DNA from: Longibaculum muris
GTDB lineage: Bacteria; Bacillota_I; Bacilli_A; Erysipelotrichales; Coprobacillaceae
Reading direction: 5' to 3'
Length of the DNA stretch: 64,000 nucleotides
NCBI RefSeq assembly: GCF_004343035.1
Contig: NZ_SMCQ01000007.1
Span: forward strand, 1-64,000
The stretch's first letter is position 1. Every line of letters begins with the position of its first letter. The position numbers were made by a program, and so were the translations under genes. The notes under the pieces were generated by a model. That model was given only the letters and a program-made list of their open reading frames with translations. It was not told the DNA's origin and searched no databases. Positions 5,073-12,428 of this stretch are shown piece after piece.

Positions 5073-6758
5073 TTATTTTTCTTCATATTTTAAGGCTTTT
5101 TGACCTTGAGCACCTGAGGAAATCCTAATAACATTTTCAACATCGTAAACAAATATTTTTCCATCCCCAGGATGTCCAGTATAAAGAACTTTTTTTGCAA
5201 CATTGACAACCTTTTCAACAGGTATATCAGAGACAACAATTTCAATTTTTAATTTTGGTAATAATTGCATATTCACTTTGGCTCCACGATAATATGATGT
5301 TTGACCTCTTTGAATACCACATCCAGAGACATGGGTTGCAGTCATACCAGTAATACCAATGCCATCCATTGCACGTTTTAAGACCTCTAATTTTTCTGGT
5401 CTTGTAATAATAACAACTTTACTCAATAGTGAAGATGTTTTTTCATTTAATATAGGGGAATTTAATGGAATATCATGTGATGTTTCTAATTCATTTGATG
5501 GAAGCATATTATGACGTGGATCAAATGAAACATCCATAGCAAATCCTGCATAAGCACTTTCTAATCCATGTTCTAATTTATCCAAACCAACAATTTCTTC
5601 TTCCTCACTAACACGTAAACCAATAGTATATTTAATAATCAAAAAGACAATTGTCATTGTCACAGCTGTCCATAAGGCAACTGCACCAATACCAGTGAGT
5701 TGAGTGATGAGAAAATCAAATCCACCACCATAGAATAATCCAAGAGCTTTAGGCATTGTATCTGTTCCACAAGCAAATAACCCAACACAAATAGTTCCTA
5801 ACAATCCACATCCACCATGAACAGCGACAGCACCAACGGGATCATCAATTTTTAATTTATAATCAAGTAACCATACAACAAATACAACAACCAATCCTGC
5901 TAAAATACCAATAATAGCAGCACCAAAGATATTAACAGCATCACAACCTGCTGTAATTGCAACCAAACCAGCTAATGAACCATTAAGCGTCATAGCAACA
6001 TCTGGTTTTCCATATTTTATCCATGTAACTAACATAACAGTACAAGTCGCAAGTGCTGGAGCGACAGTCGTTGTAGAAAAAATGGTAGCTAATTGTAATC
6101 CATTTTTTGCTGCTGCTCCATTGAAACCATACCATCCAAACCAAAGAATGAAACAACCTAAAGCACCAATTGTTATATTGTGTCCAGGAATCCCATTTGG
6201 ACTTCCATCTTTATTAAACTTTCCAATACGGGGACCTAATATTTTAGCACCAATTAAGGCAGTAATTCCACCAACCATATGAATGGCACATGATCCAGCA
6301 AAATCATGGAATCCCTTTTGTGCTAGCCAGCCACCACCCCAAATCCAATGGGCTTCAATAGGATAAACAATCAAACTAATGATAATACTGTAAATACAAT
6401 AAGATACAAATTTTGTTCTTTCAGCCATTGCACCTGAAACAATTGTTGCAGCTGTTGCACAAAAGACTAAATTAAAAACAAAAGATGACCAATCTGTACC
6501 AGTAAAATTAAATAAAGGATTTTCACCCCAACCAAATAAACCTCCAACGTCAGTCCCACATAAAAATGTATAACCAACAATTAAAAATGCGACAGTCCCC
6601 AAACAAAAATCCATCAAGTTTTTCATGATGATGTTTCCCGCATTTTTAGCTCTGGTAAAACCTGCCTCTACCATTGCAAAACCAGCTTGCATAAAGAATA
6701 CTAAGGCAGCACCCATCAAATACCAAATTCCAAAAACTTCATTCAAAATCTCTTGCAT
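5073..6758 (-). CDS. amt: Ammonium transporter fused to a C-terminal PII signalling domain
   Basis: Residues 1-about 405 are an Amt/Mep channel with about 11 membrane helices. The pore twin-histidines are His160 (CAIHMVGG) and His314 (VAVHGGCGLLGT). A linker leads to a complete PII (GlnK) domain at about 446-561: KVVIITRPEKLEVL strand, T-loop GIQRGQTSYYRGA with Tyr490 at the usual uridylylation position, and the GHPGDGKIF nucleotide-binding loop. Free PII proteins plug Amt from the cytosol, so here the plug is tethered. The start has AGGAGGGAG upstream. A long leader with two attenuator-like modules precedes it. Length (561) is that of Amt plus PII and the reading frame is intact. Confidence 0.93.
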   Translation of the reverse strand: MQEILNEVFGIWYLMGAALVFFMQAGFAMVEAGFTRAKNAGNIIMKNLMDFCLGTVAFLIVGYTFLCGTDVGGLFGWGENPLFNFTGTDWSSFVFNLVFCATAATIVSGAMAERTKFVSYCIYSIIISLIVYPIEAHWIWGGGWLAQKGFHDFAGSCAIHMVGGITALIGAKILGPRIGKFNKDGSPNGIPGHNITIGALGCFILWFGWYGFNGAAAKNGLQLATIFSTTTVAPALATCTVMLVTWIKYGKPDVAMTLNGSLAGLVAITAGCDAVNIFGAAIIGILAGLVVVFVVWLLDYKLKIDDPVGAVAVHGGCGLLGTICVGLFACGTDTMPKALGLFYGGGFDFLITQLTGIGAVALWTAVTMTIVFLIIKYTIGLRVSEEEEIVGLDKLEHGLESAYAGFAMDVSFDPRHNMLPSNELETSHDIPLNSPILNEKTSSLLSKVVIITRPEKLEVLKRAMDGIGITGMTATHVSGCGIQRGQTSYYRGAKVNMQLLPKLKIEIVVSDIPVEKVVNVAKKVLYTGHPGDGKIFVYDVENVIRISSGAQGQKALKYEEK

Positions 6759-6794
6759 ATTTTCTCCCTCCTAAAAACTTTATTCCTATATAAG

Positions 6795-6912
6795 AAAAAG
6801 GCGGATTTTAAAGTTTTCACTTTAAAAACACGCCTTTGTGCTTATATAAGTTATACATTTACAAAAAAAGCTTCTGATACAATCTGTATCAAAAGCGTCT
6901 TTGCTTATGTAT
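6795..6912 (-). promoter_or_regulatory. amt leader: two tandem A1/G4 hexaloop hairpins, each overlapping a terminator
   Basis: Read on the minus strand. Hairpin P1 (6893-6906) is AAGC, loop AAAGAC, GCTT. Its 3' arm is also the start of terminator T1 (6863-6896: an 11-bp stem with one G-U pair, then seven U). Hairpin P2 (6827-6842) is AGCAC, loop AAAGGC, GTGTT, and its loop and 3' arm overlap the 5' arm of terminator T2 (6795-6837: AAAGGCG/CGCCTTT outer stem, then U5). Both loops have six bases with A at 1 and G at 4, the known ANTAR RNA-binding signature. P1/T1 and P2/T2 are mutually exclusive pairs. An ANTAR gene lies about 1.4 kb away at 8142. Confidence 0.75.
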
Positions 6913-6918
6913 GGGCAT

Positions 6919-6947
6919 AATATAACAAAAACTTTTTAAAAAGTCAA
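6919..6947 (-). promoter_or_regulatory. amt promoter
   Basis: On the minus strand, TTGACT (6942-6947), a 17-nt spacer and TATATT (6919-6924). The predicted start near 6912 places the first hexaloop hairpin about 6 nt into the transcript. Confidence 0.75.
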
Positions 6948-7033: not shown

Positions 7034-7062
7034 TTGACATCATTTGTTAAATCGCTTATGAT
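7034..7062 (+). promoter_or_regulatory. Promoter of the glutamine synthetase-like/ANTAR operon
   Basis: TTGACA (7034-7039), a 17-nt spacer and TATGAT (7057-7062). It is divergent from the amt promoter; the two -35 boxes are about 90 bp apart. Confidence 0.75.
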
Positions 7063-7081
7063 AAAAAACATAGATATATGG

Positions 7082-7127
7082 GGCGCATAAAGATGAAATC
7101 AATTTCATTTCTTTATAGCGCCTTTTT
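7082..7127 (+). terminator. Leader terminator (attenuator) before the GS-like gene
   Basis: GGCGC (7082-7086) pairs with GCGCC (7118-7122), extended inside by ATAAAG/CTTTAT and ATGAAAT/ATTTCAT, then T5. It lies between the promoter and the gene, so it would stop most transcripts unless relieved. I could not find a clear A1/G4 hexaloop competing with it. Confidence 0.75.
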
Positions 7128-7150: not shown

Positions 7151-8137
7151 ATGAATTATACGATTGAAGATATGAAGTTGTTTTTAAAAGAACATGATGT
7201 ACAATTTATTCGTTTGGTTTTTTGTGACATTTTTGGAAATCAAAAAAATATATCTGTTAGACCATATCAAATAGAAGATATTATTGAAAATGGTTTAGTA
7301 TTTCAAGGAGGATTGTCAAAAAATCAAAAGATATTATTAAAACCTGATTTGACATCACTTGATATTTTGCCTTGGCGACCACAAAGTGGTAGTGTTATAC
7401 GTTTCTTTTGTCAGATTTGTGATGAGAAAGGAAATGTCTTAGAGAGTGATTTAAGAACATTACTACAAAATCAACAAGATAAAATAAAACAAAATGGTTT
7501 TGATATTAAACTACAATTAGGAACATCGTTTTATTTGTTAAAAAAAGATCAGTCACTTATTGTTCCACATGATGAAGCAGGCTATTTGGATGTTGCACCA
7601 ATGGATCAAGGAGAAGATATTCGTCGTCAAATATGTTTGAATTTAGATGATATGGCAATTCAAACATCGTTATCATATCATGATTATGGACCTGGACAAA
7701 ATAGTGTTGATTTAACATATCAAGATGTTTTAACAGCTTGTGATCAATTTATTACATTGAAGTGGGCTATTCAAACAAGTGCTGATTTGTATGATTTAAT
7801 AGCTTCTTTTGGGGAATTTGAAGAATGGCACGAAAATGCTTTGCATATGTGCTTTTACATTCATGATGAAAAAACATGTCAAAGTTTTTATGAAGGAATC
7901 TGTAAATATAGCCAAGATATATGTAAGTTTTTAAATTTATCCAAAGAACCTTTAGATTGTGTGTTATCAAATCATTGTATTGAATTCATATCAATACGAC
8001 CAACATGTCAACCTTATCTTGTGACTTATCTTTTCTTAATGGCGGGACTTTATGGTATAAAAAAAGTACAAACAAAGACTTTTATCCAAGATATTCTGTC
8101 ACTAACTTTATTGGAAAGCTTAGCCAAGAAGGAGTAA
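7151..8137 (+). CDS. Glutamine synthetase-like protein with a decayed active site
   Basis: 328 residues against about 440 for GSI. The N-terminal beta-grasp domain is clear (VQFIRLVFCDIFGNQKNISV, 18-37), as is the start of the catalytic domain (GYLDVAPMDQGEDIRR, 144-159) and the C-terminal family pattern (IEFISIRPT...PYLVTYLFLMAGLYGIKK). Metal-binding residues are changed: in YHDYGPGQNS (176-185) Asp178 and Ser185 replace Glu, the first-Glu strand reads GTSFYLL, and the central ATP-site segment is missing. It is therefore probably not a working synthetase. It sits 4 bp upstream of an ANTAR regulator, so a glutamine-sensing or regulator-binding role is my inference. GAGGAGGGG precedes the start. 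Confidence 0.82.
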   Translation: MNYTIEDMKLFLKEHDVQFIRLVFCDIFGNQKNISVRPYQIEDIIENGLVFQGGLSKNQKILLKPDLTSLDILPWRPQSGSVIRFFCQICDEKGNVLESDLRTLLQNQQDKIKQNGFDIKLQLGTSFYLLKKDQSLIVPHDEAGYLDVAPMDQGEDIRRQICLNLDDMAIQTSLSYHDYGPGQNSVDLTYQDVLTACDQFITLKWAIQTSADLYDLIASFGEFEEWHENALHMCFYIHDEKTCQSFYEGICKYSQDICKFLNLSKEPLDCVLSNHCIEFISIRPTCQPYLVTYLFLMAGLYGIKKVQTKTFIQDILSLTLLESLAKKE

Positions 8138-8141
8138 GAAT

Positions 8142-8720
8142 ATGTTATCATGTCTTGTATGTACTTCAAAAAATGATCGATTTCAAGCCATAAAATCATT
8201 GATTTTCAATGTTTCTAAAAGTGAAGTGATGTGGGCTCAATATCAAGAAGATATTGCTAAAAACTTAGCCAATTCAGTAGTCGATGTTTTCATTATTGAT
8301 TTACCCTATATAGGCGATCATCATGAAATGCGTTTTGTGATGTCTTTACATCAACGATATCCTGATATTTGTATGATAATACTAGTAGCACATCAATATA
8401 TAGATAAAATTCAAGAACAGATTGAGGGATTAGGTATTTTGATAGTTGCCAAACCATTGCAAAGAGATATATTTAAACAATTCTTGACTTTTGTGTCTAA
8501 CTACCAATGTCATATGAAAAATTATCAAATGCAACAAAAAAAGCTCCTGAAACAAATATCGGAGATGAAACAATTTTATTTAGCAAAATGTTTATTAATG
8601 GAAAATGAATATATGTCAGAGAGTATGGCTCATCATTATATTGAAAAAGAAGCAATGAATCAAAGAGTATCAAAAATAACAATAGTCAAAAATATTATCA
8701 ATAAATATGGAAGGGATTGA
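8142..8720 (+). CDS. ANTAR-domain antiterminator with degenerate receiver
   Basis: 192 residues. Residues 1-115 look like a response-regulator receiver with Asp53 (FIIDLPYIGD) and Lys104 (VAKPL), but the N-terminal acidic pair is absent. A coiled segment (about 125-145) leads to an ANTAR domain (about 133-188): YLAKCLLMENEYMSESMAHH followed by YIEKEAMNQR fits the family pattern of AKxxLM, acidic/Ser turn, A, and EAM. ANTAR proteins bind paired hexaloop RNA hairpins and prevent termination, often at nitrogen genes. Candidate targets are the amt and glnN leaders on either side. AAGGAG precedes the start. No kinase gene lies beside it, which fits control by a protein partner such as the GS-like product. 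Confidence 0.87.
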   Translation: MLSCLVCTSKNDRFQAIKSLIFNVSKSEVMWAQYQEDIAKNLANSVVDVFIIDLPYIGDHHEMRFVMSLHQRYPDICMIILVAHQYIDKIQEQIEGLGILIVAKPLQRDIFKQFLTFVSNYQCHMKNYQMQQKKLLKQISEMKQFYLAKCLLMENEYMSESMAHHYIEKEAMNQRVSKITIVKNIINKYGRD

Positions 8721-10257: not shown

Positions 10258-10310
10258 AAGCGACAAGGGAGTCGAGACAGAAATGTTTTGACCCCTTTGT
10301 CGCTTATTTT
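10258..10310 (+). promoter_or_regulatory. glnN leader: A1/G4 hexaloop hairpin competing with a terminator
   Basis: The terminator pairs AAGCGACAAGGG (10258-10269) with CCCTTTGTCGCTT (10293-10305, one bulged T), then ATTTT. A competing small hairpin, CGAC, loop AAGGGA, GTCG (10261-10274), has a six-base loop with A at 1 and G at 4 and uses the terminator's 5' arm. A second small hairpin, GAGAC, loop AGAAAT, GTTTT (10274-10289), starts with A but has A, not G, at position 4. The arrangement suggests ANTAR-controlled read-through into glnN-asnB-gltBD. Confidence 0.65.
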
Positions 10311-10334: not shown

Positions 10335-12428
10335 ATGAGTAAAAGTATTACAGAATTATTTGGTGAATTAGTTTTTGATGAAGATACAATGGAACAAAGA
10401 TTACCAAAAGATACCTTTAGAGAATTACAAAAAACAATGAAAGAAGGGCGTTCTTTAAATATTAAAATTGCCAATGCAGTAGCGAATGCGATGAAAGATT
10501 GGGCACTTGAACATGGTGCAACTCATTATACGCATTGGTTTCAGCCAATGACTGGAGTCACTGCTGAAAAACATGATGGGTTCATTAATGTTAATGGTAA
10601 AGGAAAAGTAATTTTAGAATTTTCTGGAAAAGAATTAATTAAAGGCGAACCAGATGCTTCTTCTTTTCCAAATGGAGGCTTAAGAGCAACTTTTGAAGCA
10701 CGTGGATATACAGCATGGGATCCAACATCATATGCTTTTATTAAAAATAATGTTTTATGCATTCCAACAGCTTTTTGTTCTTATTCAGGACATGCCTTAG
10801 ATAAAAAAACACCATTATTAAGAAGTATGGAAGCAGTTAATAAACAAGCTTTAAGAATTTTAAAATTATTTGGAAATGAAACTGTAAAATCTGTAAAGAC
10901 GACTGTTGGACCAGAGCAAGAATATTTCTTAGTTGATAAAAAATTCTATGAACAAAGAAAGGATTTAATTTATACTGGAAGAACGTTGTTTGGAGCACCT
11001 TCACCAAAAGGTCAAGAGATGGAAGATCATTATTTTGGTACTATTAAATCAAGGGTTCAAGAATTTATGAATGATTTAAATAATGAATTATGGAAATTAG
11101 GTATTTTAGCTAAAACTGAACATAATGAAGTTGCACCTGCCCAACATGAATTAGCACCTATTTTTACAACAACTAATATTGCAACTGATCATAATCAATT
11201 AACAATGGAATTAATTCAAAGAATTGCTAAGAAACATGATTTAGTAGCTTTATTACATGAAAAACCATTTGAAGGTATTAATGGAAGTGGAAAGCATAAC
11301 AACTGGTCACTTTCAACAGATACAGGAATAAATCTATTAGAACCAGGTGAGACTCCACATGAAAATGCACAATTCCTATTATTTTTATGTGCAGTATTAA
11401 AAGCTGCTGATGAACATCAGGATTTATTAAGATTGTCAGTAGCAACAGCTGGAAATGATCACCGTTTGGGGGCCAATGAAGCTCCACCTGCTATTATTTC
11501 AGTGTTCTTAGGTGATGAGTTAACAGAAATCTTAGAAGCTATTGAAAATGATCAACCTTATGATGGTAAAGAAAAAGAAATTATGAAAGTTGGAGCACAT
11601 GTTTTACCTAAATTTGCTAAGGATGCAACAGATCGTAATAGAACATCTCCTTTTGCTTTTACTGGAAATAAATTTGAATTCCGTATGTTGGGATCAAGTG
11701 CTTCTATTGCAGGATGTAATATTGTATTGAATACAGCCATTGCTGATGAATTAAAACAATTTGCAGATGTTTTAGAAAAAGCACCAGATTTTACTTCAGC
11801 ATTACATGCTTTAATTCAAGGTACAATCAAAGAACATAAACAGATTATTTTCAATGGTAATGGATATGATGAGAGTTGGGTTGAAGAAGCCCAAAAGAGA
11901 GGATTATTGAATTTAAAGACAACACCTGATGCTTTACCTTATTTTATAAAAGAAAATAATATTGAATTGTTTAAAAGACATCATGTTTTGGATGAAGAAG
12001 AAGTGACTTCACGTTATGAAATTATGATGGAAGAATATGTCAAAGTATTAAACATTGAAGCATTAACAATGGTAGATATGGCAAAGAAAGAGATTCTACC
12101 AGCTGTGTCTCTTTATTCAAAAAGACTTGCAGAAACTTGTTTAATGAAAGAAAAATTAGTTTCTCAACAACAATGTTATGAAAAAGAGACATTAGAAAAA
12201 ATGACACAATTATTAAATAAGGCATATCAAGCTTTAACTCATTTAGAAAGTATCTTAGAAACTTCAAAAACAATCAATGATTTTGAGCAATTAGCATTTT
12301 TCTACCGTGATAATCTTATTTTAGCAATGAATGATTTACGTGAACCATGTGATGAACTTGAAACAATGACTGCTCAAGATATATGGCCATTCCCTACATA
12401 TGGGAAACTCTTGTTTGGAATTATCTAG
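10335..12428 (+). CDS. glnN: Glutamine synthetase, type III
   Basis: ATP-dependent synthesis of glutamine from glutamate and ammonia. 697 residues is the type III length, much longer than GSI. The FPNGGLRATFEARGYTAWDP block (about 110-130) is diagnostic for GSIII. Catalytic features include VGPEQEYFLVD, the EHNEVAPAQHE metal loop, FEGINGSGKHNNWS and NRTSPFAFTGNKFEFR. AAGGAG precedes the start. It is first in an operon with asnB and the two glutamate synthase genes, so glutamine is made and used by cotranscribed enzymes. Unlike the 7151 paralogue, all recognisable active-site residues are kept. Confidence 0.95.
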   Translation: MSKSITELFGELVFDEDTMEQRLPKDTFRELQKTMKEGRSLNIKIANAVANAMKDWALEHGATHYTHWFQPMTGVTAEKHDGFINVNGKGKVILEFSGKELIKGEPDASSFPNGGLRATFEARGYTAWDPTSYAFIKNNVLCIPTAFCSYSGHALDKKTPLLRSMEAVNKQALRILKLFGNETVKSVKTTVGPEQEYFLVDKKFYEQRKDLIYTGRTLFGAPSPKGQEMEDHYFGTIKSRVQEFMNDLNNELWKLGILAKTEHNEVAPAQHELAPIFTTTNIATDHNQLTMELIQRIAKKHDLVALLHEKPFEGINGSGKHNNWSLSTDTGINLLEPGETPHENAQFLLFLCAVLKAADEHQDLLRLSVATAGNDHRLGANEAPPAIISVFLGDELTEILEAIENDQPYDGKEKEIMKVGAHVLPKFAKDATDRNRTSPFAFTGNKFEFRMLGSSASIAGCNIVLNTAIADELKQFADVLEKAPDFTSALHALIQGTIKEHKQIIFNGNGYDESWVEEAQKRGLLNLKTTPDALPYFIKENNIELFKRHHVLDEEEVTSRYEIMMEEYVKVLNIEALTMVDMAKKEILPAVSLYSKRLAETCLMKEKLVSQQQCYEKETLEKMTQLLNKAYQALTHLESILETSKTINDFEQLAFFYRDNLILAMNDLREPCDELETMTAQDIWPFPTYGKLLFGII

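Follow-up and report, generated by a model that had tools for sequence, protein, structure and literature searches.

Published ANTAR target RNAs carry two hexaloop hairpins, P1 and P2, joined by a short linker and followed by a terminator (PMC3369931, PMC8164766), which is also how the initial annotation of this locus had described them. Curated ANTAR sets demand two stem-loops (PMC8164766), and the leaders recognized by AmiR and NasR are reported to contain dual hairpins (PMC3369931). EutV needs both hexaloops in vivo; the linker in Enterococcus faecalis measures 5-12 nt, and EutV activity is lost or falls sharply with a 14-nt linker in eutP or with a linker made 20 nt longer (PMC3369931, PMC8934654). 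Walshe et al. proposed that the smallest site an ANTAR protein can bind is one hexaloop (PMC8934654), a proposal with which the leaders described here agree.

In Clostridium saccharobutylicum, the ANTAR regulator NitR is reported to switch on GS/GOGAT genes through antitermination when nitrogen is limiting (Stutz et al. 2007, as reviewed in PMC6316151). Like the leaders described here, the ANTAR nitrogen regulons predicted in 2012 target ammonium transporters and glutamine and glutamate synthases; the model behind those sites has dual hairpins, and single-hexaloop units would not fit it (PMC3369931). The ANTAR RNA searches published so far ask for a pair of hexaloops and would have missed such units. 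In Desulfotomaculum acetoxidans, at least 13 ANTAR sites were predicted in six transcription units (PMC3369931). With more than one site per unit there, attenuators in series have a precedent in principle.

We analyzed a 64,000-nt stretch of the Longibaculum muris genome (the window), in which the gene for an ammonium transporter with a C-terminal PII domain (amt-PII, 561 aa, 5073-6758, minus strand; PF00909 E 2.5e-123, PF00543 E 9.5e-24) is preceded by a 392-nt gap. Judging from its sequence, the amt leader probably consists of two serial, self-contained ANTAR antitermination units controlling this gene, each a single hexaloop that competes with a terminator. The order of the elements can be read directly on the minus strand: promoter, hexaloop 1 and terminator 1, hexaloop 2 and terminator 2, ribosome-binding site, and amt-PII at 6758. 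The putative promoter (6919-6947) combines TTGACT (6947-6942) and TATATT (6924-6919) across 17 nt. Transcription is predicted to start near 6912, and hexaloop 1 begins about 6 nt beyond. This first predicted ANTAR site (antiterminator 1, 6893-6906, aagc-AAAGAC-gctt, loop at 6902-6897) has a stem of 4 bp and is followed by intrinsic terminator 1 (6863-6896), which folds into a 12-pair stem at 6896-6870 with seven Ts at 6869-6863. The second (antiterminator 2, 6826-6843, aagcac-AAAGGC-gtgttt, loop at 6837-6832) has 6 bp, including one G-U. Folding places intrinsic terminator 2 at 6795-6837, with a stem AAAGGCG...CGCC at about 6837-6800 and five Ts at 6799-6795. A separate promoter for unit 2 was considered and rejected; the candidate is weak, matching at 8/12 positions in the window with a T run as its -10 box.

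Both six-base loops, AAAGAC and AAAGGC, have A at position 1 and G at position 4 and are closed by a C-G pair, and with stems of at least 3 bp they have the form of published ANTAR RNA hairpins. At both units, the 5' arm of the terminator overlaps the loop and 3' arm of its own hexaloop. Hexaloop and intrinsic terminator are mutually exclusive, as in published ANTAR target RNAs. The initial annotation had reported two minus-strand hairpins with these loops, each overlapping its own terminator, in a hexaloop-terminator, hexaloop-terminator layout. The sequence bears out the hairpins, the coordinates and RNA folding bear out the overlaps, and the layout stands as well, with conserved units in relatives. 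The amt leader thus shares with the EutV-controlled eut antiterminators of E. faecalis the A1/G4 hexaloop, the conserved closing pair, the hairpin-terminator overlap, and an ANTAR gene nearby (PMC3369931, PMC8934654). It differs in having one hexaloop per terminator, the first at the predicted 5' end, whereas EutV sites have P1 and P2, both needed, within 5-12 nt. The two hexaloops in the window are 49 nt apart, outside the two-hexaloop, short-linker arrangement.

RNA folding gave -19.4 kcal/mol for terminator 1 (z -6.5) and -19.5 kcal/mol for terminator 2 (z -5.9), compared with about -2.0 to -2.5 kcal/mol for hexaloop 1 alone and about -3.9 to -4.5 kcal/mol for hexaloop 2 alone. The terminators, being far more stable than the isolated hexaloops, should therefore win without help. 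The complete leader folds at -44.1 kcal/mol (z -8.8). When the 392-nt intergenic sequence was shuffled 500 times with its dinucleotides preserved, two hexaloop-terminator composites never arose, and a single one arose eight times. Rfam held no family matching the amt leader at the gathering score and nothing credible at a permissive threshold. A sub-threshold match to the L20 leader (23.8 bits against a cut-off of 58.7) was dismissed as chance.

The only ANTAR gene found genome-wide lies nearby, at 8142-8720 on the plus strand. As the initial annotation had proposed, its product is an ANTAR protein (PF03861 E 1.9e-7, 31.2 bits against a cut-off of 27.3). It has 192 aa and comprises a degenerate receiver, a coiled coil, and the ANTAR domain. 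Used as a query for related loci among genome contigs, this protein returned no match. In a model built from the single sequence, the ANTAR domain is well predicted and the receiver part has low confidence. The nearest solved structures to this model are EutV, both free and RNA-bound, AmiR, Rv1626, and NasR, with a best Foldseek E-value of only 0.01, and AmiR is the top PDB sequence match. Of the EutV residues defined as touching RNA (PMC8934654), M172 and K143 are retained. Y164 is replaced by H in the window protein and in every relative examined, as in AmiR, and in the window protein M and L stand in place of EutV R142 and K147.

The receiver seems unsuited to the phosphorylation on which EutV depends as a response regulator. 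Response_reg falls below the Pfam cut-off, the acidic pair is missing from the window protein and its relatives, and the phospho-acceptor Asp varies among the relatives. The acidic pocket and invariant acceptor of a phosphorylated EutV-type response regulator are thus absent. With the acidic pair gone and the acceptor variable, the protein is more likely to be governed by a partner protein than by phosphorylation. AmiR sets a precedent: its receiver has no phosphorylation residues and is controlled by a partner protein. The window protein has the ANTAR fold in common with AmiR/AmiC of Pseudomonas aeruginosa and NasR of Klebsiella, and differs from both in its partner and signal.

A candidate partner is encoded immediately upstream. 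The ANTAR gene is the last in an operon that begins with a relative of type I glutamine synthetase (GS; 7151-8137, plus strand, 328 aa), which ends 4 nt before it. In most ANTAR-bearing genomes examined in the order, this partner has about 390-425 aa and retains GS motifs. In the window, ECEF has become GTSF, with loss of E-x-E; GQNEI has become GQNSV, with loss of the glutamate; and the glycine-rich substrate loop and the NSYxRLG segment are missing. The protein therefore has neither the metal and substrate residues nor the full-length domain of a catalytic type I GS. The NitR gene adjoins glnA in C. saccharobutylicum; the likeness to the window is a GS-linked ANTAR regulator, and the difference is that the GS partner here is truncated and has lost catalytic residues. 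On sequence comparison, this loss suggests either a sensor role or decay. The gene stays in frame beside the ANTAR gene despite its losses and is a candidate pseudo-enzyme sensor. Independent partial losses of the GS partner are also seen at loci L096/L098 and L103/L104. For the GS-like protein, a single-sequence AlphaFold model reached a pLDDT of 36, too low to be of use.

The GS-ANTAR operon has a strong putative promoter (TTGACA-17-TATGAT, 7034-7062, plus strand) and a terminator in its leader (7082-7127, plus strand). Here the hexaloop is degenerate, with a five-base loop (TATG-GGGCG-CATA), whereas the same leader has a canonical hexaloop in close relatives. Among relatives, ANTAR operons carry a hexaloop-terminator unit in their own leaders. 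A second predicted target in the window is the type III glutamine synthetase gene (GSIII, glnN; 10335-12428, plus strand). Its leader holds a single unit, in which a hexaloop (cgac-AAGGGA-gtcg, 10261-10274, plus strand) overlaps a terminator reaching about 10309.

We scanned related loci and found 47 hexaloop-terminator units, located before amt, the GS-ANTAR operon, stand-alone ANTAR genes, GSIII, gdhA, and pyrG; a covariance model search added a purF leader. A unit was present in 10/10 of the amt leaders first examined from ANTAR-bearing genomes of the order. The scan required A1, G4, C-G closure, and at least three pairs, and these features are partly selected for. Position 2 of the loop is A in 47/47 units, though the scan did not demand it, and position 5 is a purine in all 47. 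The stems covary, with 66 double-change cells where shuffles give 27.6 and slid partners no more than 19, while loop A1-A2-x-G4 and the C-G closing pair stay constant. The initial annotation had proposed looking in related amt leaders for conservation of loop A1/G4 and of the stem overlap, and both are conserved. Its tie between the units and the neighboring ANTAR gene gains support as well, from this conservation in ANTAR-bearing genomes.

For cross-validation, a covariance model was built from non-amt leaders only and run on both strands of 49 loci around amt (209 kb). At E<1, 21 of 22 matches were amt leaders of ANTAR-bearing genomes. They include both amt hexaloops of the window and five leaders unused in any model (L126, L128, L130, L131, and L132). 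Across the 49 loci, the leaders of ANTAR-less relatives gave no match. Twelve same-family amt-PII relatives (70-76% identical) from genomes without an ANTAR gene lack such a leader. Instead, the -35 region of their amt promoters (L003-L014) is overlaid by repeats resembling TGATAAT/TTATTATTGACA, as though a nitrogen regulator that binds DNA had taken the place of the RNA system.

The full model at E<=0.01 matched 24 of the 70 genomes of the order that bear an ANTAR gene, by Pfam census, and 2 of the 220 others. The search re-finds many training sequences, and the Fisher p of about 1e-14 is inflated, as the seeds come from ANTAR-bearing genomes. One of the two model-positive genomes without a detected ANTAR gene is 78% complete. 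In the L. muris genome, the model matched unit 1 at 6862-6908 (E 0.005) and unit 2 at 6793-6843 (E 0.002), both of them model seeds, and beyond these gave weak matches only. One genus of a second family (L133, L134, L136, L137, and L138) has a divergent hexaloop, ggc-AAGGGT-gcc, with a short terminator before amt, a form missed by the trained model. At L133, L136, and L137, both hexaloop and ANTAR gene are present.

This design, one hairpin to each terminator, stands before nitrogen genes in many related gut bacteria. The genes with a hexaloop-terminator unit upstream or alongside include those for CTP synthase and glutamate dehydrogenase, as well as purF (pyrG adjoins the ANTAR gene at L034 and L042; L091 is gdhA and L108 purF), which widens the set to glutamine-using enzymes. 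We read the whole as a putative GS-linked, NitR-like ANTAR antitermination regulon made of single-hexaloop units.

In nearly all leaders of the order, no more than 0-16 nt separate the predicted start from the hexaloop stem, leaving no room for P1, and a candidate second hexaloop upstream was found in 1/43 leaders. We then considered 72 further amt-PII loci outside the order, mostly from Lachnospiraceae, Ruminococcus, and other Clostridia, with L207 labelled Erysipelotrichaceae. A unit was found in 52 of the 72 by a scan that required A2, which is therefore not independent there. The spacing between -10 box and stem is most often 10-12 nt, and 6/65 units have a candidate P1, compared with 3.9% of shuffles. 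Two of the 72 loci (L166 and L240) have an ANTAR gene close to amt. By these predicted starts and stems, transcripts that begin with one hexaloop are a general design. Far from being a peculiarity of the L. muris genome, single-hexaloop units predominate in the order and are common in Clostridia. Without P1 in these leaders, one hexaloop per terminator must suffice if they are ANTAR attenuators. Given that EutV needs both, a lone hexaloop before each terminator may not be strong enough, unless the ANTAR subfamily found here behaves differently. At L130, L131, and L132, the amt leaders of G161, G065, and G093, the terminator tip is itself a C-G closed A1/G4 hexaloop, so that these leaders resemble a dual-hexaloop site whose second hexaloop sits inside the terminator.

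The presence of two hexaloops at amt, and of two in the published model (PMC8934654), invites another reading, in which they form one spaced-out P1+P2 site with terminator 1 between them and a single dimer handing over from one to the other. This is improbable: a linker of 49 nt far exceeds the 5-12 nt of E. faecalis, where longer linkers impair EutV (PMC3369931, PMC8934654), and most relatives have one unit only, from which it follows that a single unit must be able to work. We think it just as improbable that the hairpins are ordinary 5' arms of terminators, belonging to a constitutive attenuator or to the site of some other RNA-binding protein. The isolated hexaloops are indeed weak (-2.0 and -3.9 kcal/mol), and ANTAR binding to them is a prediction. 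Ordinary arms would not account for loop letters that are invariant while the stems covary, for a unit that among close relatives occurs only where ANTAR genes do and stands in the ANTAR operon's own leader, or for the 0/500 chance control.

Slightly less remote, though still unlikely, is that the units are relics and the system is being lost from this genome. The GS-like protein has lost its catalytic residues, the GS-ANTAR leader has a terminator without a canonical hexaloop, and the ANTAR domain scores below most relatives. Against loss, all three units, two at amt and one at GSIII, are intact, the GS-like and ANTAR genes keep open reading frames next to each other, and key ANTAR residues are retained.

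In our favored model of the two amt units, both terminators would fold by default and RNA polymerase would stop. An active ANTAR protein would grip each hexaloop as it emerges from the polymerase, so that the terminator could not form. What sets its activity would most likely be the GS-like protein from the gene immediately upstream, rather than phosphorylation, much as AmiC sets AmiR and feedback-inhibited GS sets TnrA. By analogy with NitR, nitrogen limitation would free or activate the ANTAR protein, leading to antitermination. When both terminators fail, amt-PII would be made, and GSIII would follow with its single unit. The analysis establishes the sequence, the predicted structure, the conservation, and the association with ANTAR genes and nitrogen genes; from these we infer the protein binding, the signal, the direction of the response, and what the GS-like partner does.

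More broadly, we lean toward a widespread subclass of ANTAR regulators, encoded alongside a GS or pseudo-GS, for which a single 5'-end hexaloop would be a complete, modular antiterminator that can be placed in series, against the two-hexaloop rule; in the window, the nitrogen sensor would be a dead GS. If single units work as complete antiterminators, natural leaders lacking P1 offer a direct test of why EutV, which binds its hexaloops singly, needs P1 at all. The units would also expose a nitrogen regulon (amt, glutamine synthetases, gdhA, pyrG, and purF) in this order, probably Erysipelotrichales, and in Clostridia, and a lineage where a dead glutamine synthetase may survive solely as a sensor.

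The initial annotation had suggested that the tandem units provide stepped control of ammonium uptake. This does not follow from the layout: both terminators precede the same gene, so the attenuators multiply and there is no intermediate product. Doubling at amt should instead square the leak and sharpen induction, and with read-through multiplied, amt would leak less and respond more steeply than GSIII. Two serial units occur at amt in the window, at L065/L066, L069, and L068/L111, and in 13/72 of the amt-PII loci outside the order. Within the 47-unit set, 0/31 leaders of other genes have two (Fisher p 0.004). On the amt tree, the tandem state requires at least two changes by well-supported branches, and in tandem amt units a stem of the agc type is often followed by one of the cac type.
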